Below are positions 2,707 to 61,969 of a DNA stretch of 64,000 nucleotides, piece by piece. The translations under genes were made by a program, and so were the position numbers. Under the pieces are notes generated by a model, which saw only the letters and a program-made list of their open reading frames with translations, searched no databases and was not told where the DNA came from. This stretch comes from Paraburkholderia sp. FT54. Its GTDB lineage: Bacteria > Pseudomonadota > Gammaproteobacteria > Burkholderiales > Burkholderiaceae. How positions within the stretch are numbered: position 1 is the stretch's first letter; every line of letters starts with the position of its first letter. The stretch is from positions 2,885,898 to 2,949,897 of the forward strand of contig NZ_CP134196.1 of the NCBI RefSeq assembly GCF_031585635.1, in the 5' to 3' direction.

Positions 2707-2950
2707 GTTTGTCCTGAGTCAGTGGATGGGGACGGCGGCCCGCTGGCCCATGCCTCGCGAGCGCGTTCCATCCGCCGTCGGTGGACGAAATGCGCCTGCG
2801 CGCCGCAAGCGTGTTCGCTGCAGATGACGTGGCTTGCGTCAAGACAAGGCGCTACAGCCGGCCGCCGGCGTGGCCGTTACGTTCCCTTATTTTTGCAGAA
2901 AACGTGCGCCGATCGAAGCGTACGTCACAGCCTTCCACCGCGGCGGGCGT

Positions 2951-3154
2951 TCAGGCTTTCTGCCGCTGCTCCAGCGCCGAGAGTGCGGCATTGAGCCGTT
3001 TGACGCGGCTCGCCTGGGCTGGCACCAGGACGGCGCCGGAAACGGAGTCGATGCGATTTCGCCAATAGGACAGCGGGATGCGGTCTTCAGCGGAAATATG
3101 CGAGATTACGTGTTCAAGATGCTCGATATCTTTTTCGAGTTGGTGATGATTCAT
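2951..3154 (-). CDS. Small conserved-looking protein, 67 aa
   Basis: A 67-residue, highly charged and probably helical protein beginning MNHHQLEKDIEHLEHVISH. I place the start at 3154 because GGGGAAAG precedes that ATG at proper spacing; the open frame extends to 3220 but the added residues look random. No domain is recognised. The regular leucine and glutamate spacing in the first 20 residues suggests a short coiled coil. No neighbour gives a functional clue. Confidence 0.6.
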   Translation of the reverse strand: MNHHQLEKDIEHLEHVISHISAEDRIPLSYWRNRIDSVSGAVLVPAQASRVKRLNAALSALEQRQKA

Positions 3155-3670
3155 TGCTTTCCCCGGATTACTCGTTGAACTATTTTCAATGCGTAAATCG
3201 AAGCATGAAGCGTGCCGCAATTACTCCCGGTTTGTCTAAACGGAAAATCCTTCCTGCCACCTTTTAATCTCGACGACTGAACCGGCAAAACCTGCTTGCT
3301 GCCTGAATCTTGAGTCACTGACAAGAGAATACGGCGCCTGAACTTCGCGGTCCGTTAGGTGCCGCACTGACTTGGCAAAACGGCGGAAATCGCGGCGTTT
3401 TAATTATGGCCGGCGACAAGAAAGATAATATGAAGCGCAGCATTAATATCCATTGCGCATGATAGACGTGGACAGAACCGGCATTAGACGCAGGTCTTTA
3501 TGACGGCCATACGCTTGTCGTGACGAGCTTGACGTGCCGCGCGAACCAAATTGACTGACGCGGATGAATTCGATGTGGCGATCGAGACGCCCGCCCTCGT
3601 TATCGAGAGGCGGGCAGAAGGAAGGGTGTTTGACGCGTATGAGTCGCGCCGGCCCTGTGCCGGCGGCCCG
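3155..3670. other. Gene-poor, less GC-rich gap
   Basis: 516 bases between two minus-strand small genes. Parts, especially 3380-3470, are visibly less GC-rich than the surroundings. I see no open frame with codon usage or residue composition like a real gene, no tRNA and no convincing terminator. It presumably holds the promoter of the 67-aa protein. Confidence 0.4.
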
Positions 3671-3931
3671 TTATTTTGCCCGGCAGGCGTAAATCAGGTT
3701 GAGTGTGCCGTTCTCAGTCGACTGCCGCACGACGTCGAATGCGCCGCCGCAACCTGCGCTGGCCTGCTGCGAGCAGGAGTCGGAACCGGCGGGGCACTGA
3801 ACCAGCGTGGTCGCGCGGCCATCCGACAGAAACAGCGGCGCGCTGCTGCTGCAAGCGCTTAGCGCGACCATAGCGCCGGCCGCCAGCGTGGCGCCGGCCC
3901 GGCGCGCAAAAAAGGAGAGATTGCGTTTCAT
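3671..3931 (-). CDS. Small predicted lipoprotein, 86 aa
   Basis: Begins MKRNLSFFARRAGATLAAGA followed by the lipobox LSAC with the lipidation cysteine at 27, so a signal-peptidase II substrate anchored in a membrane. The mature part is short (about 60 residues) with three further cysteines (CPAGSDSC, GCGG, YAC) that could form disulfides in the periplasm. No domain recognised. It is transcribed separately from the sigma54 regulator gene that ends downstream of nothing but this gene's promoter region. Confidence 0.7.
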   Translation of the reverse strand: MKRNLSFFARRAGATLAAGAMVALSACSSSAPLFLSDGRATTLVQCPAGSDSCSQQASAGCGGAFDVVRQSTENGTLNLIYACRAK

Positions 3932-4018
3932 TTGAAACCCCGATCACGTCTTGTTTTTCGATCTCGCGATTGTGCCACGCGGCAATTACGCTGCGTCAAT
4001 CGCTATCGTCGAACGTGG

Positions 4019-5497
<1,479 letters not shown>

Positions 5498-7738: not shown

Positions 7739-10700
7739 TCAATGCGCCGACGCCTCGTCGAGTCCGTAGTGATCGCATAAGGCTTCGTGCAGCGAAATCG
7801 CGAGTTCGTCCATCTCGGTGGTCCAGCGTTCGCTTTCGTTGCATAGCCGTTGCAATCGCCGGCATTGCTCGACGAACCGCGGCTCCTGCACCACGACGAA
7901 CGCGCCGCTCGCGCTATGCGCCCAGCCGGCCAATGCCTGCACGTCTTCCTCTTCGACGATCGCAAGCAGTCTCGGCAGATCTTTTTGCAAATGCTCCTTG
8001 AGCATCGCCGCGTAGCGTGCCTTGTCGTCCGCGCTGAGCGTGCTGCCCGCATTGGCAACGGGCGCCATGGGTTGGGCTGGCGCGGCTGTCCCGGCAGCCG
8101 CCTGCGCCGATGCCGGCGCCACCTCCAGCAACGCGGCTTGCAATTGGCTCAACGACGCTGGCTTGGCCACATAGCCGCTAAAGCCACGCTCGCGCCAGAT
8201 GTGCGCACTCTCATTCTCGGACACGGCGCTAAAGGCCAACACCCGCACGGCAGCATGCAACTCGCGCAGCGCGGCCAGCAGTGCGTAACCGTCCATCTCG
8301 GGCATATGAATGTCGGTCAGCACCACCTCGAAATCTGTTTGCTCGAACAGTTTCAGCGCGTGCTTGCCGTCGTGGGCGATGGTGGGCACGCACCCCAATT
8401 CGACCAGTTGTTCGGCGATCAAAGTCTGGATCAGGGGATTGTCTTCCGCGACCAGGACCGGGAGTCCACGCAACGTGGGATGAGCTCCCATCGAATCCGT
8501 TGCCGCGCTCGCGGAAACCGGCGCCGCAGCCGCGGACCCGCCCTCGTGCGCCAGTTCGACGGCAGACAGAATCGCAGTCCGGCTGAATTCACTCACTTCG
8601 AGCACACCGTCGCCGCGCGCCTCGGCACGATGCGGGCCGTCATGCGTGATCCACACGGCGCCGACCGGTTGCAGCGCACGCAACGTGGCAATCACCTCGA
8701 AATCGTATTCGCCGGAGACGACCAATACATCCGGGCGGTTCACGCGCAACCACGCCTGCGCGGCGGCAGACGAGAACACCAGGTGGGCCGCCCAGCCCGC
8801 GCGCTGAAGCCAGCGGTCCAGCAACTCGCCGCCTTCCGCTTCCATGAATAAGACGAGCACCGTCCCGCGCTGCTCGGGGACCGCTGCTGACACGCGCGGA
8901 TCGGCGGGGGGCTTCTCAAGAGGGATTGATACGCGAAATGCACTGCCGACGTTGGGTACACTTTCCGCGGAAATCTGGCCGCCCATCAACTCGCATAAGC
9001 GCGCACAGATCGCGAGGCCGAGACCCGTGCCGGCGTTGCCGCGCGAAGCCCCCTGTTCGCCCTGCGCGAACGGCTTGAAAAGCAGCGCCAGCGTTTCCTG
9101 GCTAATGCCTGCGCCCGAATCCGAGACTCGGCAGTTCAGTATCGCCCGGCCCGCTGAATCGTCTGTCACGTCGGCATATAACGTGATCCTGCCGATCGAG
9201 GTGAACTTGAATGCATTGCTCAGCAGGTTGTTGACGATCTGCCCTATGCGCATGCGATCGCCGATCAAGATCTGGTCGAGGGTCGGAGAAAAGAGGGCGT
9301 GGTAACTGATCGAGCGGTCACCGTGCATCGATGCATAGGAAAGGGCGATGTTTTCGAAATCGTCGATCAGGCGAAAGGGTTCCTTGACCAGCAACATCTC
9401 GCCTGCGTCGATCTTCGAAAAATCGAGAATGTCGTTGACCACGCGGCGCAGCGCGCCTGCCGCAAGGTCCAATGTCGCGAGCCGTTGCGAATGCGCCTCG
9501 AGACCTGGCGTACGGGCGAACAGTTCGAGATTGCCGAGCAGCGCGTTCAAAGGCGTGCGAATTTCGTGGCTCATTGCGGCGAAGAAATTCGTACGCGCAC
9601 GCATCAGCGCTTCCGATGTCTGCTGTGCGTGCCGCAGTTGTTGTTCAAGCATGGTCTGCGCGGTGACGTCGAGTATCGCGCAGAACAGCACATTCTCACT
9701 GGCGTAACGAGCGGGCGCATAGATGAATTGCAGAAACAGGGCCGGCGCGTCGCCGTCCCTCTCTGATGGCAACGCGGTTTGCGGGCCTGCTCGGTGCTCG
9801 GTTGCCGAGCGAGACAGAGACTGAGCCGGCGGCGTCTTCAGCGGCTGCGCGGGCGCGACGAACGCAGCCACCCCCGTGAACGCCGCGGCCGACGTCTGAT
9901 CCGGCGCCTGAGCCACGAACTCGCCCACGATATGCGGCGGGAGCCGACTACCATCGGCCTCGATATCGAGCAACTCAGTCGCAAGCGCGTTGGCCGTCAG
10001 GATCGAATAGTCGCTCTGCCGGACAATGCACAACCCGACGGGTGTCGCGCTGACGAGAATGTGGTTGAGGGTTTCGCTTTGCAGCGCGCGTGACGTTTCC
10101 GCAAACGAATTGCGTAAGAGTCGCAAGCCGAAATAGCGCGCCATCAGAGCGATAGCCAGCAGGAAGAGCGCCGTCAGGCAGCCAATCACCGCCAGTTGCC
10201 AGCCGAGTGCGACGGCCAGCGCGCTCCACGGTATGTAGCCGACCAGGAAGCCGACGCCTGGCCCCAATGGCTCGTAAAAAAATGCGCCCTCGCGGCCGTA
10301 ATGAAAGGCGTGGGTTGGCGTAGCTGCTACCGTCTGACGCAGCAGCCGGGCGATCGAGCCGTCGAGCGGCGCCGACAACACGGCAATGCGGCCGTCCGCC
10401 CTCATGAGCAGATTCACGCCCTCGCGGTCGGGTGGCGCGATACGCGACACGAGCGCGTCCACCGGAATGTTCATGCTGATCAGGGAGATCGGCGTGTCGC
10501 CGTCATAGTAGGCACTCACCGCGGAAATCACCGGACGGTTCTGCAGCGGATCACGGTACGGTCCCAGCCAGACGCGCTCGCCTTTGCTCGGCACGCGCTT
10601 GCCGGTTTGCGCCTCGAACTGGCGCTCGAGCGTCTCGCGCAGCACGTTGACGATCGTCGGTTGCGGCACAGGCGTAGCGGCCTGATCGGCCCTGCCGGTC

Positions 10701-11269
10701 TGGCCCGCGAGCGGTTCCGCCAGCGTACGCAGAATCACCGCGTAGTCTTCGTTCAATCCGATCAGCATCGCCTGTTGCCGCAATTCAAAAGCCTGCTGAG
10801 TCACGAGCGTCGATCGCGCCGATTCGTAGAGGCGTCCGAGGTTTTGGCCCAGTTGCGGGCCCCACGCGTTGCGCGTGGCTTCGCCGACCGCCATGTCGAA
10901 ATCTGAATCGTCTATCTGGAAGCGCGCGACACCGTTCTTCACGATCGCTTGCTGTATGGTATCGGGCGCGCTCCGTGCGCCGGCCTGGCCGTCGTTATGA
11001 GCGAGCGTCAACTCGGCGCGCCGCAGGAACGACTCCTCCTGATGCACGAGCAGGGAGATCTGGGCGGCATTCTGCGATACGAGGGTACGGTGATAGTCGA
11101 GTTGCTGGAGTCCCGCGACGGCAACCAGCACGAGCGCAAAGATCACCACGATCAGCATCAGCGAGCCGACGGTCGCGAGATAAAGCCGCTGTTGGCGCTT
11201 CGCGCTCTGGGCGAGCGTGGCAAAGGCCTGCGCCAGCGACTCCTGAGTACGGTCGAGAATCTTCTGCAT
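7739..11269 (-). CDS. Hybrid sensor histidine kinase with two receiver domains and HPt
   Basis: About 1176 residues from the ATG at 11269; an upstream in-frame start at 11401 adds an unlikely basic stretch. Order: TM1 (about 30-55), large periplasmic sensor (to about 385), TM2 (ALAVALGWQLAVIGCLTALF), a PAS-like region, HisKA with FFAAMSHEIRTPLNALLG, HATPase with NNLLSNAFKF and GTGLGLAICARL, a degenerate receiver lacking a clear phospho-Asp, a complete receiver (VLVAEDNP, DIHMPEMDGY, KPASLSQL) and a C-terminal HPt domain with AHSASGA as the likely phospho-His site. This is the EvgS/BvgS/RcsC-style relay layout. No partner response regulator is adjacent, so the phosphate acceptor lies elsewhere. 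The Aer-type receptor gene is divergent. Confidence 0.9.
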   Translation of the reverse strand: MQKILDRTQESLAQAFATLAQSAKRQQRLYLATVGSLMLIVVIFALVLVAVAGLQQLDYHRTLVSQNAAQISLLVHQEESFLRRAELTLAHNDGQAGARSAPDTIQQAIVKNGVARFQIDDSDFDMAVGEATRNAWGPQLGQNLGRLYESARSTLVTQQAFELRQQAMLIGLNEDYAVILRTLAEPLAGQTGRADQAATPVPQPTIVNVLRETLERQFEAQTGKRVPSKGERVWLGPYRDPLQNRPVISAVSAYYDGDTPISLISMNIPVDALVSRIAPPDREGVNLLMRADGRIAVLSAPLDGSIARLLRQTVAATPTHAFHYGREGAFFYEPLGPGVGFLVGYIPWSALAVALGWQLAVIGCLTALFLLAIALMARYFGLRLLRNSFAETSRALQSETLNHILVSATPVGLCIVRQSDYSILTANALATELLDIEADGSRLPPHIVGEFVAQAPDQTSAAAFTGVAAFVAPAQPLKTPPAQSLSRSATEHRAGPQTALPSERDGDAPALFLQFIYAPARYASENVLFCAILDVTAQTMLEQQLRHAQQTSEALMRARTNFFAAMSHEIRTPLNALLGNLELFARTPGLEAHSQRLATLDLAAGALRRVVNDILDFSKIDAGEMLLVKEPFRLIDDFENIALSYASMHGDRSISYHALFSPTLDQILIGDRMRIGQIVNNLLSNAFKFTSIGRITLYADVTDDSAGRAILNCRVSDSGAGISQETLALLFKPFAQGEQGASRGNAGTGLGLAICARLCELMGGQISAESVPNVGSAFRVSIPLEKPPADPRVSAAVPEQRGTVLVLFMEAEGGELLDRWLQRAGWAAHLVFSSAAAQAWLRVNRPDVLVVSGEYDFEVIATLRALQPVGAVWITHDGPHRAEARGDGVLEVSEFSRTAILSAVELAHEGGSAAAAPVSASAATDSMGAHPTLRGLPVLVAEDNPLIQTLIAEQLVELGCVPTIAHDGKHALKLFEQTDFEVVLTDIHMPEMDGYALLAALRELHAAVRVLAFSAVSENESAHIWRERGFSGYVAKPASLSQLQAALLEVAPASAQAAAGTAAPAQPMAPVANAGSTLSADDKARYAAMLKEHLQKDLPRLLAIVEEEDVQALAGWAHSASGAFVVVQEPRFVEQCRRLQRLCNESERWTTEMDELAISLHEALCDHYGLDEASAH

Positions 11270-11566
11270 CAGCGCGCGTGGGTAGCGGATTCGCGCAGGC
11301 AGACCGCGGCGAATCGAGGGGCGAGATGCGTCTGCAGCCCTTATACGGGCGCAGTGTAGTCCTTTTGAAGACATCGCGCGACGCATCCGGCACTGTTTCA
11401 CACGGCCTTTCAGCGCTCGTCAAACAACCCTGTATTAACGGCCTGGTCGAGACTAAACCTGAGTGGTTTACTGGGAAACCCTCAAGACTGCGGGGTTAAT
11501 TGCCGTTATTCCTTGCAACCATGTAAGCACCGCGCCCACGCGTGGGCTGGCACCAGCAAGGAAGCC

Positions 11567-13267
11567 ATGCGCAACAACCAGCCTGTCACCGGGCACGAGT
11601 ACGAAATCCCTTCGTCACACATGCTTGTTTCCGCGACCGACCTGACCGGTCGCATCCAGTACTGCAATCCGGCCTTCATCACCGTCTCGGGCTTTGCGCG
11701 CGACGAACTGATTGGCCAGCCGCACAACCTGATCCGCCATCCGGACATGCCACGCGAAGCGTTCGCCGACATGTGGGCAACGATCCGCGACGGGCGCCCC
11801 TGGACAGCGCTCGTGAAAAATCGCCGCCAGAACGGCGATCACTACTGGGTCCATGCCAACGTCACGCCGGTGGTCGAGAAAGGCGCCGTGGTCGGCTACT
11901 TGAGCGTGCGCGTGAAACCGGAACGCGCCGCGGTGCGCGCCGCCGAAGCGCTGTACGCACGCATGCGCGGCGGCGAGTCGCGTGGCGTGCGGTTGCGCCG
12001 CGGCGTGGTGGTGCGCACCGGTGTGCTGGGGCGCTTGCAGGCGCTGATGCGCCTGCCCGTCGCGACACGCGCGGCGATCGGCTACGCGATCACGCCGCTC
12101 GCGCTGCTGCTGACCGGCCTCGCGGCATGGCAAGGCGCGCCGCCTGTGCCGTTCTGGATGGCGTTCGGCGTCACCACGGCAGTCAGTATCGTGTCGTGGC
12201 AGGTGCTGACGCGCCAACTCGCCGCTCCGATCCGCGACATGTCGGGATTCGCCACGCGTCTCGCCGCGGGCGACCTGACCGCCGATCTGCAGATCGTGCG
12301 CCACGACGACCTCGGCGACGTGCTGCAAGCACTGAATCAGTTGAGGGCGAATCTTGCGGCGATCGTCTACGACGTGCGCGCCCAGATCACCGGCATGCTC
12401 GACAATGCGCGCGAAATTTCCAGCGGCAATGTCGATCTCGCGAGACGCACGGAGTTGCAGGCAGCGTCGCTTGAAGAGACCGCCGCCACGATGGAAGAGC
12501 TGACCACCACGGTGCAAGCCAACGCCGACGCCACCGTGCGCGCACTCGATCTGGCGCGGGACGCTCAGGCGGCGGCCGCGGTCGGCGGCAAGATTGCGGG
12601 CCAGGTCGAGCAGACCATGGCGGGCATCACCGCGGCATCTCGGCGTATCGCCGACATTACCGGCGTGATCGACGGCATCGCGTTCCAGACCAATATCCTT
12701 GCGTTGAATGCCGCCGTCGAAGCGGCGCGCGCGGGCGAAGCGGGCCGCTCGTTCGCGGTCGTCGCGGGCGAAGTGCGCATGCTGGCGCAACGCTGCGCGG
12801 CGTCGTCGAAGGAAATCAAGTCGGTGGTCGAAGCGAGCGCAACCGAAGTCGCGGCGGGCACCGAACTGGTTGCCCGTACAACGTCGCAGATGCGCGTGAT
12901 CGACGAGGCGGTGGGCCGCGTGTCGTCGATCATCGTCGACGTGGCGAATGCGAGCAGCGAACAGGCGGAAGGCATTCGCCAGGTCAATCAGGCGGTCTCG
13001 CATCTGGACGGCGCCACCCAGCAGAATGCGGCGCTCGTCGAGCAGGCGGCGGCAACCGCGCAGCGTCTGGCGGAACAGGCGGACGTGCTGGACGAAGCCG
13101 TGCGTCTGTTCACCGTCGCCGACGCAGCACAGGCGCAACGCGCCGCCGGCAAGAAGCGTCAGGCGTTCAGCGCCGATGCAGCGCAAACGGCGGTGCTTGG
13201 GATCAAACGACACCGTGCGCCAGTCATCGTCCGCGATGTCGAGCAGGAAGACGCTGCATTGATCTGA
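11567..13267 (+). CDS. aer: Aer-type PAS methyl-accepting chemotaxis receptor
   Basis: 566 residues. The N-terminal PAS domain is strongly like Escherichia coli Aer: [39 protein letters not shown] and the RVKP end, features that go with FAD binding. A hydrophobic hairpin (about 165-205) anchors it to the inner membrane, followed by HAMP and a signalling domain with [37 protein letters not shown]. It senses redox or energy state and drives CheA/CheW for aerotaxis. Start chosen at 11567, with AAGGAAG just before ATG and the Aer-like beginning MRNNQPVTG; a frame extension to 11513 is unlikely. A terminator follows. Confidence 0.93.
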
Positions 13268-54813: not shown

Positions 54814-55179
54814 CTAGCCCGCCAGTTTGCGGAACGTTTCCAGCACCGCGTCGCCCTTGAACGGCTTGACGATCCACCCCTTCACGCCCGCCGCCTTACC
54901 GCGCTCCTTCATTGCCGGGCTGCTCTCGGTTGTCAGCATGATGACGTTGACGGTCTTGTTCGCGAGTTCGCCGCGAATCTTCTCGACCATCGTCAGGCCA
55001 TCCATATTCGGCATGTTGACGTCGCTGATCACCAGCTTGATGCCGGGGCTGGCCTTCAGCTTGGCGAGGCCGTCCTTGCCGTCCACCGCCGTGTCGACGT
55101 CCAGACCGTTCTTCTTCAGAAAGCCCGCCACTTCGTCGCGCACCGTGCTCGAATCATCCACCACCAGAATTTTCGACAT
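54814..55179 (-). CDS. CheY-like single-domain response regulator
   Basis: 121 residues, a stand-alone receiver: acidic pair DD at 8-9, phospho-acceptor Asp53 in VISDVNMPNMDGL, Thr83 in MLTTESS and Lys105 in IVKPFKG. It is closest in look to CheY paralogues of accessory chemosensory systems (SKILVVDDSSTVRDEV). Start at 55179 after AGGAAAA. It is the last gene of a five-gene operon with two CheX-like proteins, an MCP-type fragment and a CheA-like kinase, and is the likely phosphate acceptor of that kinase. Confidence 0.92.
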   Translation of the reverse strand: MSKILVVDDSSTVRDEVAGFLKKNGLDVDTAVDGKDGLAKLKASPGIKLVISDVNMPNMDGLTMVEKIRGELANKTVNVIMLTTESSPAMKERGKAAGVKGWIVKPFKGDAVLETFRKLAG

Positions 55180-55199
55180 GTTTTTTCCTATGACAACAT

Positions 55200-56171
55200 T
55201 CAGAACAGATCCAGTTCGCCCGCCTCGACCATTGCGCCGACGTCGTCCGCGACTTCCTTGAAGTCTTCCGGCGACCAGCTCAGGCTGAACACAAAACGTT
55301 GATGCAATTTGACCGCACGGTTCGACTGCGGGTCCTTCAACCAATACGTGAAGCACAGTTGCGGATTGCCGCTGCCGAACGAGATGTACTTGTGCTTGTG
55401 ATTCACGAGCAGCGGCACCTGCACCTGGCTGCGCGCCCAGGCGTCCGCATCGCCGACATAGCGGTTCTTGAAGGAACCCCAGATCAGGTTCGTCACTTCG
55501 CCGAGCACGCTGTTCAGGTCGCGGAAATCCGCTTCGCCGTGTCGCGCGTTGTCGATCATCTTGTAACGATCGAGCAGTTCGAGAATCGGCGTCTCTTCGG
55601 CCTGCATCATCATGTAGCCGCGGCACCATGCGCTTTCCAGCGGAATCAGGCTGAACACCTCGCCGAAGATGATGCGGTCACGCACGATATATGGCGTGTC
55701 GCACGTGATGGTGAGTTCCTTGAACACGTCGCCGAGAATCGCTTGCGTCATGTCGGCGATGCCGCGCACCAGTGCGTTCGGATAGTCCAGGCTGAAGATG
55801 TAGTCGTCGATCACCTGGCGCAGCGGCGCCATATCGTGCGCGACGTACGCCGCGCAGATCACACGTCGCAAGCTCTCCGGCAAACCGTCCATGCCTGGGT
55901 CGTCGTCCCGACGCATGATGATCGGCAACTCGGGACGCACCGCGTTGATCCTGATCGCGATCTCGGCACTCGCCTCCGGCGAGCCACCGTAACGCTCGGC
56001 AAACAGCACCGCGCCCAGATCGATGTTCGAGCGCAGCACCGATTGCAGGCGGTTCTTGCCGACCTTCACGCCGACCAGATTGTTCTCGTCGCAAAAGCGC
56101 TTCAGCGCTTCCTTGTGCGCCGGGCAGTCGTCCAGCACCAGCACCTTGCTGACCGGCTTGTTCATGTTCAT
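55200..56171 (-). CDS. CheX-like protein with N-terminal receiver-like domain
   Basis: 323 residues. The first 120 resemble a receiver (VSKVLVLDDCPAHKEALKRF; LGAVLFAERYGG; RPELPIIMRRDDDPG) in which the phospho-Asp position is not preserved, so it is probably inactive. The rest is a CheX/CheC-type domain with the phosphatase motif ExxN in VLGEVTNLIWGSFKNRY. CheX removes phosphate from CheY-P. The ATG at 56171 follows CAGGAACGCGAC. It sits between the other CheX-like gene and cheY; gaps are 20-40 bases. Its ending GELDLF resembles that of the next protein (GELELF). Confidence 0.82.
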   Translation of the reverse strand: MNMNKPVSKVLVLDDCPAHKEALKRFCDENNLVGVKVGKNRLQSVLRSNIDLGAVLFAERYGGSPEASAEIAIRINAVRPELPIIMRRDDDPGMDGLPESLRRVICAAYVAHDMAPLRQVIDDYIFSLDYPNALVRGIADMTQAILGDVFKELTITCDTPYIVRDRIIFGEVFSLIPLESAWCRGYMMMQAEETPILELLDRYKMIDNARHGEADFRDLNSVLGEVTNLIWGSFKNRYVGDADAWARSQVQVPLLVNHKHKYISFGSGNPQLCFTYWLKDPQSNRAVKLHQRFVFSLSWSPEDFKEVADDVGAMVEAGELDLF

Positions 56172-56208
56172 GTCGCGTTCCTGCTCACAGCGGCTATACA
56201 TTTCACGG

Positions 56209-56751
56209 TCAGAACAACTCCAGTTCGCCGCTGGTTTCTTCGACCACACTCGTATCGGCGACGAAGTCGAGCGGCGCATGCGCGCACACGCACACCGTCG
56301 CGGCAAGCCGCACGCTGCCGTCGAGCGTGACCGAATACGACGACAGCAGAGCCGGCTTCAATTCATGCAGATGCGGCAGGCAACGCGCGTTCAGCACGTA
56401 AGGCGTCGACATGCCGAGGTCGGGAAAATAGCGCAGCAACTCCTGATTCATCGCCCCGCAACACAGGTTGCAAATTTCCAGAAAGGCTTCCTGGAAGGGC
56501 CGCTCGTCGGCGGCGTCTTTCAGGTAATAGCCGCGTGTGCTGTCGTCTTCGTTGAAGTGAAGAATCAGCAGCAGTCTGAACACAATCGACGAAATGGTCA
56601 GCACGACCACTTGCGTGTCTTTGGATACGCCGACACTGGCGTCGGCTATCGGCGCGATCTCGCACAGATCGCCTGAATCCAGCGGTAAGCGCGCCTGCGC
56701 GGCCTTGCGGAAAATGCGCTCGAAGCTGTCCTTGGCGTGGGCCGAAATCAC
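56209..56751 (-). CDS. CheX-like phosphatase domain protein
   Basis: 180 residues, a stand-alone CheX/CheC-like domain with ExxN in FLEICNLCCGAMNQELLRYF. The C-terminus SGELELF echoes GELDLF in the neighbouring larger CheX-like protein, hinting at duplication. Its start overlaps the MCP-type gene end by 4 bases. It probably dephosphorylates the operon's CheY or pairs with the larger CheX-like protein. Confidence 0.78.
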   Translation of the reverse strand: MISAHAKDSFERIFRKAAQARLPLDSGDLCEIAPIADASVGVSKDTQVVVLTISSIVFRLLLILHFNEDDSTRGYYLKDAADERPFQEAFLEICNLCCGAMNQELLRYFPDLGMSTPYVLNARCLPHLHELKPALLSSYSVTLDGSVRLAATVCVCAHAPLDFVADTSVVEETSGELELF

Positions 56752-57482
56752 ACCGCCACCTCGTGCAGCTTCGAATGAAGCTGATTGGCTAGCGACTCGA
56801 CGCTGGCGAGCGACGCTGCGATCATCTTGCCGCCCGCCTGAATGTCCTGAAACGTGGAAGTCGTGGTCAGATCGTTGCGATGCAGGCTGTCGCGATAGCT
56901 CTTCGATAACTCTTCCGAACGCGCGGCGAGCGCGCGCACTTCGCTCGCCACCACCGCGAAGCCGCGGCCGGCCGGCCCCGCACGCGCGGCTTCGATCGAC
57001 GCGTTCAGCGATACGATCACCACATGCCGCACAATCGACGACAGCTCCTGATTCTTCGCGTGCATGTCGTGATTTTGCGTCATCAGCGAAATCATCTGTT
57101 CGTGCCAGCGCTCGAATGTCGCGCCGAGACTCTTCAGACGCTCAGCCTCGCCGGCGATCCGCCCGGCCTGATGCGCCAAATGGTCTTTGTCCTCGGCGGC
57201 CGCTTCCAGTGCCGCGCGCAGCTCGTCGGCGCTGGCTGACTGCTGCGCGAGTTCCTCACGCAACTGCGCGGTCAAGGCATGGAGTTCATGCGCTGCCTGC
57301 TCTCGCTCGCGAATGGCCGCGCCGTGATCGGCGCGCTGCGCCTCGAGCCTGGAGATGTGGGCTTGCGCTTCAGCGCGCAGCCGTGCCGTCAGCTTCGCGC
57401 TATGCACCCTGTGCGCGGCAAATGCCAGCAGCGCGGTCACCGCGCTGCCTGCTGCCACCGCCAATACATACTGTTGAATCAC
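56748..57482 (-). CDS. Membrane-anchored MCP-type signalling protein, short
   Basis: About 244 residues from GTG 57482, which follows AAGGGAAC; an ATG at 57509 adds nine. One N-terminal membrane helix (VLAVAAGSAVTALLAFAAHR), no periplasmic sensor, a long Ala/Glu-rich coiled coil, then the chemoreceptor hairpin tip IVSLNASIEAARAGPAGRGF, AVVASEVRALAARSEEL. It ends about 50 residues after the tip, so the descending half of the cytoplasmic bundle is short and methylation sites are doubtful. Likely a structural or input partner for the membrane kinase encoded upstream. Confidence 0.82.
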   Translation of the reverse strand: MIQQYVLAVAAGSAVTALLAFAAHRVHSAKLTARLRAEAQAHISRLEAQRADHGAAIREREQAAHELHALTAQLREELAQQSASADELRAALEAAAEDKDHLAHQAGRIAGEAERLKSLGATFERWHEQMISLMTQNHDMHAKNQELSSIVRHVVIVSLNASIEAARAGPAGRGFAVVASEVRALAARSEELSKSYRDSLHRNDLTTTSTFQDIQAGGKMIAASLASVESLANQLHSKLHEVAV

Positions 57483-57527
57483 AGCCGTTCCCTTCGAATT
57501 TCGTCGCAACTTACGCCGATGCGGCGC

Positions 57528-59918
57528 TCAGCCCTGCATCGCGTCGAGTTGCAGTGCACCGGCTTCGCCACGCGCTTGCATGCCGAGCGTATCGACGGCG
57601 ACGCTATCCGGCAGGCAGACGATCGTCTGGAACTGACGGAACGCCGCGCCCTTCTGATCGTCGGTAAAGCGCAGTTCGATGCTGCCGTTCGCGCGCTTGA
57701 GGAAATCGCGCACCGCGTCCATGCCGACGCCGCGGCCCGACAGCTCCGTGACCGTTTCCGCGGTCGAGAAGCCCGGCCGGAAAATGAAATCGGCGATGGC
57801 TTCGTCGCTCAGCGCCTTGTCGTGGCTGATCCAGCCGCGTTCCATGGCGATGCCGCGAATGCGTTCGAGCGCGAGGCCGCGGCCATCGTCGCTCAGCGTG
57901 ATCTGCAGCGCGCCGTTGTCCACACCGACCTCGATGCTGATCGTGCCGGTCGGCGCTTTGCCGTGGGCGCTGCGCGCCTCGGCGGTTTCGATACCGTGGT
58001 CCATCGAATTGCGCAGCAGATGCATGAACACATCGTTCAGCGTGCCGCCCACCTGAGCGCGCAGACGGTAGCCGTTGTCGTCGATATGCACGTTCGGCGC
58101 GGGCTTGCCCAATTCATTCGCGAGCGACGGCAACGAGTCCAGCACGCCGGAGAGCGCGTCGCGCACGCTTTCGCTGCCCAGGGCGCGAAGCGTGCGGCGC
58201 AGCGCATCGTGCATCGACTGAAGTTCGTGCAGTTCGCCAGCGTTGGTTTGCTCCAGCATGCTCAGCGTATGCTGGATATGTTCCCTGGCGACCATTACAT
58301 AGTGGCCCGAGTTGGCGGCGTCGTTCGTCTGGCCTTTGCCCTTGCGGCCAAGACTCTGTTCGTTGATCTTCGCGTAGCTTTCGATGGCTTCGCGCACGCG
58401 CGTCAGTTCGCGCATCAGATGCTCCTGATCCCACGAGCGATCCGCGTCCGGTTGGCGCAGTTCATGATAGCTCTGCTCGGTTTCGTGCACGACGTTGGTC
58501 AGATGCTGCAGGTTATAGGTCCGCGCATTGCCCTTGATGGTATGCATGTTGCGGAACAGCTCGGCGATCGCCGCGTGATCCGCCTCCGAATGCTTACGGA
58601 TGATCCGCTCGTTCTCGCTGACAAAGCCGGTCGAGCTCTCGATGAAGTGGTGGAACTTCTCCTCGCTGACCGCGAGAATCTCGCCGATCATGTCGAGGCG
58701 GCGGCGCTGTTCGCTGGCTTGCGCCGCGAGCTTGCGCAATTCGGTGACGTCGCGCACGCAAAGCATCAGGCGCACGATCACGTCGCTTTCATCGGTAATC
58801 GCCGACCAGCTCAGGTCGAGAATCTTCACGCGGCCGTCGGGCATGCGCCTGGAAATCTCGCCGACCAGCAGATGCTGATTGAACGCGAAGTTGATGCAGT
58901 CTTCGCCCAGACACGCATTCGCGGCTGCGTCGACTTGCGAGAGCGCGTCCGAGCCGAGATCCGTATCCGCGAACACCAGATCCATCAGACCGCGCCCGGC
59001 AATATCCTTCGTTTCGAAGATGTCTTCCAGATACGCCGAGTACTCCGCGTGGATCACGGCGCCGTCGATCACGGTGAGAATGCCTTGCGGCATGTTCTGC
59101 AACATCGCCTGAATGTCGGCGGTTTTCTGCTTGAGTTGCGCCGAGCTCTCCTGAATCTTCTCGATCATGCCGTTGAAGGCGACGATCGAATGGCCGATCT
59201 CGTCCAGCCGGCCGACCGGCACGCGCCGCGTGAAATCCTGGCTCGAAGCGATCTCGCTCATCATCGCCTGCATGCGGCTGAGCGGGCGCGTGATCTGGCG
59301 GTAGAGCAGCGAGCCGATGGAGGTCAGCAGAACGATCGCGATGCCCGTAACGACGGCGATTGCCGTGGTCGTGGTCGAGAGCGTGGTGTTCAGCGCGCTG
59401 ATCGCCTCGTCTTTCTCGCGATTCTTCTCGACGCGCAAAGTTTCGACGATCCCTTCGAGTTCATCGCGATACTGCGCGACGTTGGCGAACAGATACGCCT
59501 GCGCGAGTTCGTTCTTGCCATCGGCCTTCATTTTGGCCGTCTCGGCGATCGCGGAGAAATAATTCTCGAGACTGTCGTTGGCTTGCGAGACGAGACCCTT
59601 CTGGGCGTGGCTCGCGGCATCTTGAGCTTGCAGAGCGAGCGCCTGTTGCAGCGAGACCCGCTTCTTCTTCAGTTCGTCCTGTGCCTGGGCGACCATGTTG
59701 GCGTCGGGCGCGTAGACCAGCGTCATCGCGGCGAGCTGCACATCCTTGACTTGCGACACGAGGTCGGCGGAAGCGAGCGCGCTCGGCACAACGCCTTCCG
59801 TCACCTTGCGCACCTCGGCTGCGCTGCCGCGCGTCTGGTAGACAGCGTAGCCGCCGATCGCCGATAAGGCGACGAACATCAGAACAACCAATAGCGTGAT
59901 GCGATGACGAATAGTCAT
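57528..59918 (-). CDS. Membrane-bound CheA-like sensor kinase (4HB-HAMP-PAS-HPt-HATPase)
   Basis: 796 residues. TM1 (7-27), periplasmic four-helix-bundle-like sensor (30-183), TM2 (184-205), HAMP (206-260), PAS (about 270-395), HPt with the phospho-His459 in HTIKGNAR, and a CheA-type ATPase domain with LLRNSMDHGIE (634-644), DDGRGL (677-682) and GRGVGMDAVRDFL (728-740). It stops about 50 residues after the last ATPase motif, so the CheW-like regulatory domain of CheA is missing. It thus joins receptor and kinase in one chain. First gene of the operon with MCP-type, two CheX-like and CheY genes; 275 AT-rich bases upstream hold its promoter. Confidence 0.9.
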   Translation of the reverse strand: MTIRHRITLLVVLMFVALSAIGGYAVYQTRGSAAEVRKVTEGVVPSALASADLVSQVKDVQLAAMTLVYAPDANMVAQAQDELKKKRVSLQQALALQAQDAASHAQKGLVSQANDSLENYFSAIAETAKMKADGKNELAQAYLFANVAQYRDELEGIVETLRVEKNREKDEAISALNTTLSTTTTAIAVVTGIAIVLLTSIGSLLYRQITRPLSRMQAMMSEIASSQDFTRRVPVGRLDEIGHSIVAFNGMIEKIQESSAQLKQKTADIQAMLQNMPQGILTVIDGAVIHAEYSAYLEDIFETKDIAGRGLMDLVFADTDLGSDALSQVDAAANACLGEDCINFAFNQHLLVGEISRRMPDGRVKILDLSWSAITDESDVIVRLMLCVRDVTELRKLAAQASEQRRRLDMIGEILAVSEEKFHHFIESSTGFVSENERIIRKHSEADHAAIAELFRNMHTIKGNARTYNLQHLTNVVHETEQSYHELRQPDADRSWDQEHLMRELTRVREAIESYAKINEQSLGRKGKGQTNDAANSGHYVMVAREHIQHTLSMLEQTNAGELHELQSMHDALRRTLRALGSESVRDALSGVLDSLPSLANELGKPAPNVHIDDNGYRLRAQVGGTLNDVFMHLLRNSMDHGIETAEARSAHGKAPTGTISIEVGVDNGALQITLSDDGRGLALERIRGIAMERGWISHDKALSDEAIADFIFRPGFSTAETVTELSGRGVGMDAVRDFLKRANGSIELRFTDDQKGAAFRQFQTIVCLPDSVAVDTLGMQARGEAGALQLDAMQG

Positions 59919-60193: not shown

Positions 60194-61969
60194 ATGATGA
60201 ATGTCAGCGTCCGCAGCTATCTGTCCCCAACACTCGTGCTACTCGCTTTCGATTGGGCCGAAGGTGGCACGCGCGAAGACTTCCTCGGTTTCGCCATCAA
60301 ACGGACGCCGGGGTTTCTCGCCGCGGATGGACACGAACGCGAAGCCAGCAGCTGGCTGCCCAACCGGTTGACCTTCAAAGGCGCGGTGCCGGACACGCAG
60401 AGGGACGCGCCGTCGAATGAGGCGCCCATTCAGAAATTCATGTGGTGGGATGCGCGGATCGACGAAGCGGATCGTGAGAAGTCGTTCACCTATCTCATCT
60501 ATCCGGTGGTCGGCACGCCGGAGGCGCCACAATTGCTCGACGCGCAAAGGGGCGAATGCAAGCTGACGTTGCCCGCGCATGTGGAAGCGAACGTCGGCTC
60601 GTGGTTCAACCGCGCCGTGGTCAGCTCGCAGGCGTTCGCGCGCAAAGTCGCCGCGCTGCATCTCGCGCCGAATGCGGCGCCGTCGCCGGAGCAGGCATTG
60701 CGCCTGCGCACATGGCTTGCGAACGATCTGCAGGAAGTTTTCGCGCTCACGCTCGATCATGCGCATCGTGCTGCGTCGGCGGTGTACCACCTGACCGATC
60801 CGCTCTGGGCGATTCCCGCCTTCGAGGCTTTCGGCAAGAAGCAGGGCAAAGCATCGCTCGCCATTGTCTACGACTCGCACGAAGTCTTGCAGAAGGGCAA
60901 GCCGCCGGCACCGTCGCCGAATCAACCCGCCGTCGACCAGCTCGCCGACGTCGCCACGTTCGCGCCGCGCGACAAGACGCACATCATGCATGACAAGTTC
61001 ATCGTGGTGGACAGCGGCAATGGCGATGCGTCACCGGCGCGCGTACTGACCGGCTCGGCCAACTTCACCACCGAAGGCATCACGGAGCAGGCGAACGTGC
61101 TCCATCTGTTCGACTCGCCGGAACTGGCCACCTTGTACAGCGAGCGCGCCAAGGCGCTGGCAGGCAATCCAGCCATCGCTGCGACGGCGAAGCTCACGCC
61201 GGGCTGGTCGGAGTCGATTCAGATCGGGAGCGCGAAAGTACGGGTCTGTTTTTCGCCTGAAGCGAAAGACTCGCGTATGCAGATCGACACGATCGTCGAC
61301 GCCATCAACGAAGCGAAACACTCCGTGGTGTTCTGCCTCTTCATGCCGACCGACGCGCCGCTGCGCGATGCATGTTTCGCGGCCGGCGACAAAGGCCGGA
61401 TGATGTTCGGCCTCGTCAACCACATCAGCCCCAAGTCAGCGGAAACGGCGGAAGAGGCGGAGAAAAACGGACAAATCGTCTCGACGACCGCGCTCGCCAA
61501 CATGGAGCTGTATCACCGCGGCCGCGACAAGCACGACGTAATCGACGCGGAGTATTTTTCACCGGCGACCGTGCCGGCAGGCTTCGAACCCGAGTTGCGG
61601 CTTTTCCCGGGCGAACACGCGCCGAGCTACGCGCCCGTCATCATTCACCACAAGTTCCTCGTCATCGATGCGGAGGGCGCCAATCCGGTCGTCTACACGG
61701 GCTCGGCGAATATGAGCAACAACTCGGAACACTTCAACGACGAGAACCTGCTGGAGATTCGCGACCGGCGCATCGCCGGCACCTATCTCGCGGAATTTCT
61801 GCGGCTCTATGAGCACTATCGGGCACGTGCGTTGGCAATACGGCAAAAGAACGACGGCACGCATGAGCGCTTGATGCTCGCGCCAGATGGATCGTGGGCG
61901 AAGAAGTATTTTGTTGCGGACAGCCCGGAAGACAAAGCGCGTGTTGCGCTGGCGCACGGTGGTGATTAA
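60194..61969 (+). CDS. Phospholipase D superfamily protein, two HKD motifs
   Basis: 591 residues, no signal peptide or membrane helix. Two PLD active-site motifs: IMHDKFIVVDSGNG with the following TGSANFT (about 263-300) and IIHHKFLVIDAEGANPVVYT then GSANMSNNSEHFNDEN (about 482-520). The two HKDs would form one active site, acting on a phosphodiester (lipid or nucleic acid) by a covalent His intermediate. The first 200 residues show no known domain. ATG 60194 follows TGGAGCC. Divergent from the chemosensory operon and convergent with the alkylation-repair gene; no immunity or secretion gene is adjacent. Confidence 0.85.
   Translation: MMNVSVRSYLSPTLVLLAFDWAEGGTREDFLGFAIKRTPGFLAADGHEREASSWLPNRLTFKGAVPDTQRDAPSNEAPIQKFMWWDARIDEADREKSFTYLIYPVVGTPEAPQLLDAQRGECKLTLPAHVEANVGSWFNRAVVSSQAFARKVAALHLAPNAAPSPEQALRLRTWLANDLQEVFALTLDHAHRAASAVYHLTDPLWAIPAFEAFGKKQGKASLAIVYDSHEVLQKGKPPAPSPNQPAVDQLADVATFAPRDKTHIMHDKFIVVDSGNGDASPARVLTGSANFTTEGITEQANVLHLFDSPELATLYSERAKALAGNPAIAATAKLTPGWSESIQIGSAKVRVCFSPEAKDSRMQIDTIVDAINEAKHSVVFCLFMPTDAPLRDACFAAGDKGRMMFGLVNHISPKSAETAEEAEKNGQIVSTTALANMELYHRGRDKHDVIDAEYFSPATVPAGFEPELRLFPGEHAPSYAPVIIHHKFLVIDAEGANPVVYTGSANMSNNSEHFNDENLLEIRDRRIAGTYLAEFLRLYEHYRARALAIRQKNDGTHERLMLAPDGSWAKKYFVADSPEDKARVALAHGGD

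Follow-up and report, generated by a model that had tools for sequence, protein, structure and literature searches.

A predicted phospho-signalling cassette in Paraburkholderia sp. FT54, with a CheA-type kinase lacking P5 and two CheX-type proteins sharing a C-terminal tail

The locus and its five genes

A stretch of 64,000 nucleotides from Paraburkholderia sp. FT54 (contig NZ_CP134196.1, forward-strand positions 2,885,898 to 2,949,897), here called the window and numbered from its first letter, carries five head-to-tail genes on the minus strand at 54814-59918, in the order HK, MCPf, CheX1, RX and CheY. They encode a kinase, a fragment of a chemoreceptor (methyl-accepting chemotaxis protein, MCP), two CheX-type proteins and a response regulator. 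The genes are separated by 45, -4 (an overlap), 37 and 20 bp, which agrees in coordinates and spacing with an earlier sequence-only reading that had described five tightly packed minus-strand genes. GTG codons are taken as the starts of MCPf (at 57482) and CheX1 (at 56751). The genes and their features are as follows.

57528..59918, minus strand: HK, kinase of 796 amino acids, a membrane sensor fused to a CheA-type kinase without P5 (Pfam, PDB matches, comparison with the genome's own CheA)
59148..59309, minus strand: HAMP domain of HK, residues 204-257 (Pfam)
58719..59135, minus strand: cytosolic PAS-like domain of HK, about residues 262-400 (many invariant residues in the family alignment)
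58389..58601, minus strand: HPt (P1-like) domain of HK, residues 440-510 (Pfam), with the predicted phospho-accepting His459 at 58542-58544
57609..58043, minus strand: CheA-type ATPase (P4) of HK, about residues 626-770 (Pfam, PDB, comparison with the genome's own CheA)
56748..57482, minus strand: MCPf, 244 amino acids, a membrane-anchored truncated chemoreceptor with hairpin tip, GTG start
56778..57038, minus strand: chemoreceptor hairpin tip of MCPf, residues 149-235 (MCPsignal in 28/28 members)
56209..56751, minus strand: CheX1, 180 amino acids, a CheX-like phosphatase candidate, GTG start, predicted catalytic pair E92/N95
56209..56229, minus strand: CheX1 tail GELELF and stop (alignment, tail counts, genome pattern search)
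55200..56171, minus strand: RX, 323 amino acids, a degenerate receiver-like domain and a CheX domain, predicted catalytic pair E225/N228
55200..55220, minus strand: RX tail GELDLF and stop (alignment, tail counts, genome pattern search)
54814..55179, minus strand: CheY, 121 amino acids, a single-domain response regulator, predicted phospho-acceptor Asp53 at 55021-55023

The sequence-only reading had also stated that the locus lacks CheW, CheR, CheB and flagellar genes. Consistent with this, no CheW match of the genome falls inside the window, and CheR, CheB and flagellar domains are absent from the 19 other window proteins scanned, which are part of its open reading frames. In the 8.6-Mb genome, which also encodes CheA, CheW, an E. 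coli-like CheY and CheZ, RX is matched by nothing but itself; HK has four other matches, of which two are CheA ATPases and two are partial sensor or HAMP regions. In databases, members of the cassette are often named 'hypothetical protein', CheA or CheX. A promoter and terminator scan of the locus returned sites no more numerous than in shuffles.

A CheA relative without P5

By its sequence, HK is a CheA relative that lacks P5 and carries its own sensor. Pfam identifies 4HB_MCP_1, HAMP, Hpt and HATPase_c, as read earlier from the sequence, whereas the PAS domain of the same reading stays below the cut-off (E 0.017); a PAS fold is matched at E<=0.01 in 11 of 28 diverse HK members. Hpt and HATPase_c are found in all 28 of these members, and the CheW-like P5 domain in none of them at E<=0.01. 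HisKA matches neither HK nor the 28 members scanned. The reading frame ends 6-59 residues after P4 in 94 kinases, counted with the broken frame of locus L054 and a wrongly picked row of L092 left out. All ten PDB matches of HK are CheA chains, with alignments that run up to the end of P4; some begin at HK residue 544-547 and so take in part of P3, for which Pfam gave no match. HK and the genome's own CheA are 41% identical over 147 residues, and their similarity stops close to the start of P5 in CheA, where little of HK is left. In a tree of P4 domains, rooted by midpoint and containing only 8 CheA, the 28 HK form one side of a branch, apart from the CheA, with 100/99 support.

The HPt histidine is invariant in the alignment of the 28 members and His459 is present in 95 of 96 kinase rows, all but that of L092, for which a canonical CheA encoded on the opposite strand had been picked automatically; the right kinase of this locus lies at 2790-5222. 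The PAS-like-HPt-ATPase core is constant across lineages; the sensor half of HK varies among the 28 members, with 4HB in 22, HAMP in 25 and single cases of GAF or of an additional PAS.

The membrane MCP-type fragment had likewise been recognized from the sequence, and MCPsignal matches MCPf at profile positions 44-137 of 172 only, short of a full cytoplasmic signalling domain. The hairpin tip is 62% identical over 42 residues to the window's full MCP. A CheZ-like enzyme was considered for MCPf and rejected: the motif F-Q-[DE]-[IL]-Q-A-x-G recalls FQDLTGQ of CheZ, but its Gln is out of register. CheZ does not appear among the 25 families listed, of 87, for MCPf.

Two CheX-type proteins with a common tail

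RX passes the 27-bit cut-off of the CheX family PF13690 with 41.1 bits, and all 32 members scanned have a CheX match at E<=0.1. It also matches CheC/CheX-type PDB chains (best E 2e-7), and E225 and N228 are kept in 100/100 sequences. In CheX1 the corresponding E92 and N95 are kept in 96/96, and 14 of 27 members have a PF13690 match at E<=0.1 (best 0.001).

The N-terminal half of RX is receiver-like, with no Response_reg among the families listed for it. At the hand-assigned phospho-Asp position it has Glu in 87 of 96 sequences and Asp in five, so that this half is probably not a phosphate acceptor. In a genus closest by sequence to Pandoraea terrae, the match to the RX model starts at position >=83 in all 26 RX-positive genomes, and five of the 26 matches contain an internal stop. 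The CheX half lies within 90 bp after CheX1 in three of the four Pandoraea-like loci read (L111-L113). The tail is kept or nearly so in all four (L111-L114), GALELF and GALEMF being counted among the RX tails below. The receiver-like half thus seems dispensable in this genus. L099 and L123 are lone, diverged second copies of RX; both retain a tail, GELEFF, and their genomes carry the cassette as well.

The C-terminus of CheX1 and of RX is one peptide, usually G-E-L-[ED]-L-F, in 96/96 and 99/100 sequences, respectively. CheX1 ends in GELELF in 81 of 96, the remainder being close variants; RX ends in GELELF in 51 of 100, in GELDLF in 40 and in close variants in eight, and one tail has one extra residue. 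All tails counted read G-[EAVMD]-[LIM]-[ED]-[LMF]-F, without a leading Gln in any. In both proteins the tail is fixed, while the segment preceding it differs in length and sequence. An exact DNA pattern of the tail and its stop gave 49 matches in 29 genomes picked from the RX-positive ones, and the backwards-pattern control gave none. All 48 stop-ended matches are ends of CheX1 or RX (36 assigned by sequence match to the locus of the same genome, two the window's own, ten by profile search); the 49th reads on without a stop.

Conservation of the cassette

The earlier reading had proposed a synteny check across genomes, with genes not kept together as the outcome that counts against a self-contained set. 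In a collection that represents each species by one genome, RX relatives mark 167 loci. Of these, the 80 best were kept; adding 20 loci, picked for their diversity and drawn from 19 of the 86 distinct RX-positive genomes, gave 100 in all. One of them, L017, comes from the laboratory strain Paraburkholderia xenovorans LB400. Two contig pairs are duplicates (L048/L119 and L053/L120), and L063/L070 have identical RX ends. HK, MCPf, CheX1, RX and CheY stand in this order at 92 of the 100 loci, with the predicted catalytic residues kept, as expected of a kinase, CheY and phosphatase set that is kept together. The outcome counting against such a set was not observed. L122 and L124 contain all five genes in another order. 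L054 also contains all five, with a broken kinase frame from which MCPf is read on. One genome (G571) has RX alone on one contig (L053/L120) and the other four genes on another (L162). The conservation of the cassette across families argues against a chance grouping.

Among 31 diverse loci, no other gene family is found within 2 kb at more than three, which indicates that the block is not just an inherited neighbourhood. On the same lack of a recurring family, neighbouring genes were rejected as the output. The family that reaches 3/31 comprises generic HisKA kinases (L058 6052-7326, L072 11859-13139 and L130 5901-7226), and both of those scanned, L058 and L130, contain CBS domains. By Pfam, no family has more than five members among 104 neighbour open reading frames of 33 loci. 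In a comparison of all flanks, an ABC-ATPase-like family is found in 22 loci, 6 of them diverse, among the first 25 clusters listed. The stretches taken from PLSDB carried no annotation for the neighbours.

Within the window, a divergent phospholipase-D-like gene lies upstream of HK (60194-61969, plus strand); a similar family adjoins the cassette in 8 of 97 loci and is not a general neighbour. About 42 kb from the cassette, a full-length PAS-HAMP-MCP chemoreceptor, Aer-like by layout (11513-13267, plus strand), adjoins a large HisKA hybrid kinase with a receiver domain (7739-11401, minus strand).

RX is present in 75 of 249 genomes sampled from the family, 11 of 300 from the order, 4 of 369 from the class and 5 of 398 from the phylum, the window's own genome being counted in each sample. 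Its presence is patchy within the window's own genus.

Proposed signalling module

We consider it likely that the cassette derives from parts of chemotaxis systems and forms a self-contained phospho-signalling module, with dual CheX-type phosphatases that carry a docking tail. The parts themselves, their catalytic residues, the absence of P5, co-conservation and the tail can be read from the sequences; from these we infer the flow of phosphate, the docking by the tail and the role of MCPf. The N-terminal domain of HK would be the sensor, with neither CheW nor P5-mediated array contact involved, and the CheA-type ATPase of HK would phosphorylate its own HPt His459. Asp53 of the CheY encoded in the operon would then receive the phosphate, and the E-x-x-N active sites of CheX1 and of the CheX half of RX would remove it. 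The receiver-like half of RX probably regulates RX instead of accepting phosphate. The common tail would bring CheX1 and RX to the same partner, most likely CheY, in a CheZ-like manner. CheY is the natural candidate because it is the one protein that both phosphatases must meet, and because CheZ binds CheY through a C-terminal peptide. MCPf, a cut-down hairpin on the membrane and a near-constant partner in the cassette, is perhaps an assembly scaffold.

Several observations weigh against this module. CheX1 reaches only 13.7 bits with PF13690; of the two CheX-like proteins named in the sequence-only reading, both have E-x-x-N but only RX clears the family cut-off. The E-x-x-N helix of CheX1 aligns with that of PDB CheX 6vpw in a weak match (E 0.25), and the match between the CheX1 and RX profiles, which covers the catalytic helix and everything after it, is modest (E 5e-4, probability 32%). 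The genome's own CheZ ends in DDLLASLGF, to which the likeness of the common tail is loose. A locus in Gallionellales (L092, 2790-6831) consists of HK, RX and CheY only, a minimal set found in nature, with an RX tail that ends in one extra Lys; MCPf and CheX1 are thus not needed everywhere. Locus L126, in genome G239, has MCPf, CheX1, RX and CheY without an adjoining kinase. Finally, the pairwise distances of the five families correlate at 29 loci (Spearman 0.59-0.86, with 0/999 permutations as high in each case), which speaks for the module, but correlated divergence also follows from shared ancestry. HK distances, for which only the core was compared, correlate least, in line with exchange of sensors.

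Genome G239 also encodes two unlinked HK-type kinases (L169 and L170; GAF, HAMP, Hpt and HATPase_c, no CheW match), which suggests two inputs into one CheY. A broader proposal, which we advance tentatively and rate below an even chance, is that such cassettes form an array-free chemosensory class. Its members would have a receptor-fused CheA without P5, their own CheY and two phosphatases recruited by tails, with MCPf assembling the parts or linking them to the main array; G239 seems to feed its two kinases into one such set.

The output of CheY

CheY had been read as a stand-alone response regulator, and Pfam confirms this (Response_reg, 87.1 bits). The phosphorylation quintet D8, D9, D53, T83 and K105 is complete in 97/97 sequences. 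Its target may lie outside the motor; a diguanylate cyclase, the effector in the PdcABC switch of Burkholderia thailandensis, is one example. We regard such a non-motor effector as quite possible, though less likely than not. In PdcABC, the response regulator inhibits the cyclase and a CheC/CheX phosphatase relieves the inhibition (PMC9899790), a precedent for CheX-type control of a response regulator in the service of cyclic di-GMP. A cyclic di-GMP protein adjoins the cassette in 3 of 33 diverse loci: an EAL-CBS-GGDEF protein in L050 (4179-6089) and L089 (7885-9846, same strand, at the cassette end), and a PilZ protein in L048 (11429-12391). In L127, a STAS protein and an MCP follow CheY. However, three loci are few and lack a background rate, which makes them a faint hint; the commonest neighbour domain is HATPase_c, in 5 of the 104 neighbour open reading frames, and by Pfam the five cassette proteins contain neither GGDEF nor another output domain. 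Since GGDEF is missing from the cassette, a direct cyclic di-GMP output was rejected. A search for PdcB covered 49.7 kb from one Burkholderia cenocepacia record and gave no match; as the stretch was chosen by guess, this search is uninformative.

Alternatively, CheY could feed into the flagellar motor as an extra input, the module then adjusting swimming in parallel with the canonical Che system. This, too, is possible, though less likely than not. FliM is found in 36 of 38 genomes picked from the RX-positive ones and in 23/23 of good quality, and CheW in 38/38 (again 23/23 of good quality). One genome is counted twice among the 38 (G803 and G912 are the same by identical match places), and the two without a FliM match came via loci and have no quality figure. 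In the order-wide sample, FliM accompanies 11/11 RX-positive and 188/289 RX-negative genomes (Fisher P 0.0099, a value that ignores relatedness). These counts place the cassette in flagellated bacteria, and in the window's genome it coexists with the canonical proteins named above. The protein itself is less in keeping with a motor role: CheY shares only 42% identity with the E. coli-like CheY of the genome, and surface residues differ. It reads Lys and Trp at the positions of E. coli CheY Ile95 and Tyr106, which we take to be FliM contacts. Its best solved matches are 4hnr and 4h60, presumably Vibrio CheY4 and not a motor CheY. The 19 window proteins scanned include no flagellar neighbour of the cassette.

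Alternatives for the tail, MCPf and the cassette

Instead of docking on CheY, the GELELF tail could be another kind of short motif, sliding-clamp-like, a degradation tag or a peptide that closes the fold, which we think rather unlikely. It resembles the clamp motif, presumably Q-L-[SD]-L-F, and the alignment of RX with CheX1 from catalytic helix to tail means that the tail could be common simply by descent. The absence of the leading Gln from every tail counted speaks against the clamp motif itself, and the tail stays fixed after a stretch that varies. A docking tail remains the reading adopted here.

That MCPf plugs the module into the canonical chemoreceptor array via CheW, making the cassette an accessory of the main chemotaxis system, appears unlikely. 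The hairpin tip is kept in all 28 members and every RX-positive genome tested has CheW. Against this, the MCPf position matching Tsr Phe373, presumably a trimer contact, is mostly polar and variable in the alignment, and the cassette has neither CheW nor P5.

A decaying remnant of a chemotaxis cluster is highly improbable as a general explanation: the MCP is truncated, CheW, CheR and CheB are missing, no intact receiver-like half of RX occurs in the 26 positive genomes of the Pandoraea-like genus and one kinase frame is broken (L054), yet the order of the genes and the predicted catalytic residues persist in many families, and CheY retains a mean pairwise identity of 81% among 31 diverse loci.

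Significance and comparison with known systems

The receiver-like half of RX, the kinase without P5 and the tail common to CheX1 and RX go beyond what had been read from the sequence. No description of the gene set or of the tail was found in the open-access full-text literature, a scope outside which most subscription papers lie, and the cassette looks like an undescribed signalling device. P5 is treated as a core part of CheA since it ties the kinase to receptors and CheW. A conserved family of P5-less kinases with their own sensor offers a natural way to test which functions depend on P5 and arrays. The pair of CheX-type proteins, with a common tail specific to the family, would provide a compact docking rule for the dephosphorylation of CheY that can be tested directly. 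The cassette is easy to spot in genomes.

The canonical CheA-CheW-MCP-CheY systems (F, Tfp and ACF classes) share with the cassette an HPt phosphodonor, a CheA-type ATPase, CheY, a chemoreceptor hairpin and a CheX-type phosphatase. They differ in that the cassette kinase has its own sensor and no P5, that CheW, CheR and CheB are missing and that the MCP is a short fragment. In a survey of 13,673 CheA, the CheW domain is reported for 100% (PMC10542144); the HK family thus lies outside that survey, perhaps by definition. PdcABC likewise combines a CheC/CheX-domain phosphatase with a phosphate-accepting response regulator in Burkholderiaceae. However, PdcA is a diguanylate cyclase, and the accessible text names no CheA-type kinase or MCP fragment (PMC9899790).

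Membrane HisKA kinases with HAMP and PAS have the same front end of sensor, transmembrane segment, HAMP and PAS, whereas HK has no HisKA match and uses HPt and a CheA-type ATPase instead. The CheY-binding peptide of CheZ, like the tail of CheX1 and RX, is an acidic-hydrophobic C-terminus ending in Phe on a CheY phosphatase (CheX1 and RX being candidates), but it differs in sequence and belongs to an unrelated fold, and docking by the cassette tail is a prediction. The CheX/CheC/FliY phosphatases (PF13690, PF04509) have the E-x-x-N pair that is aligned and invariant in CheX1 and RX. In contrast to them, the cassette provides two CheX-type proteins per CheY, one with a receiver-like half and both with the same tail.

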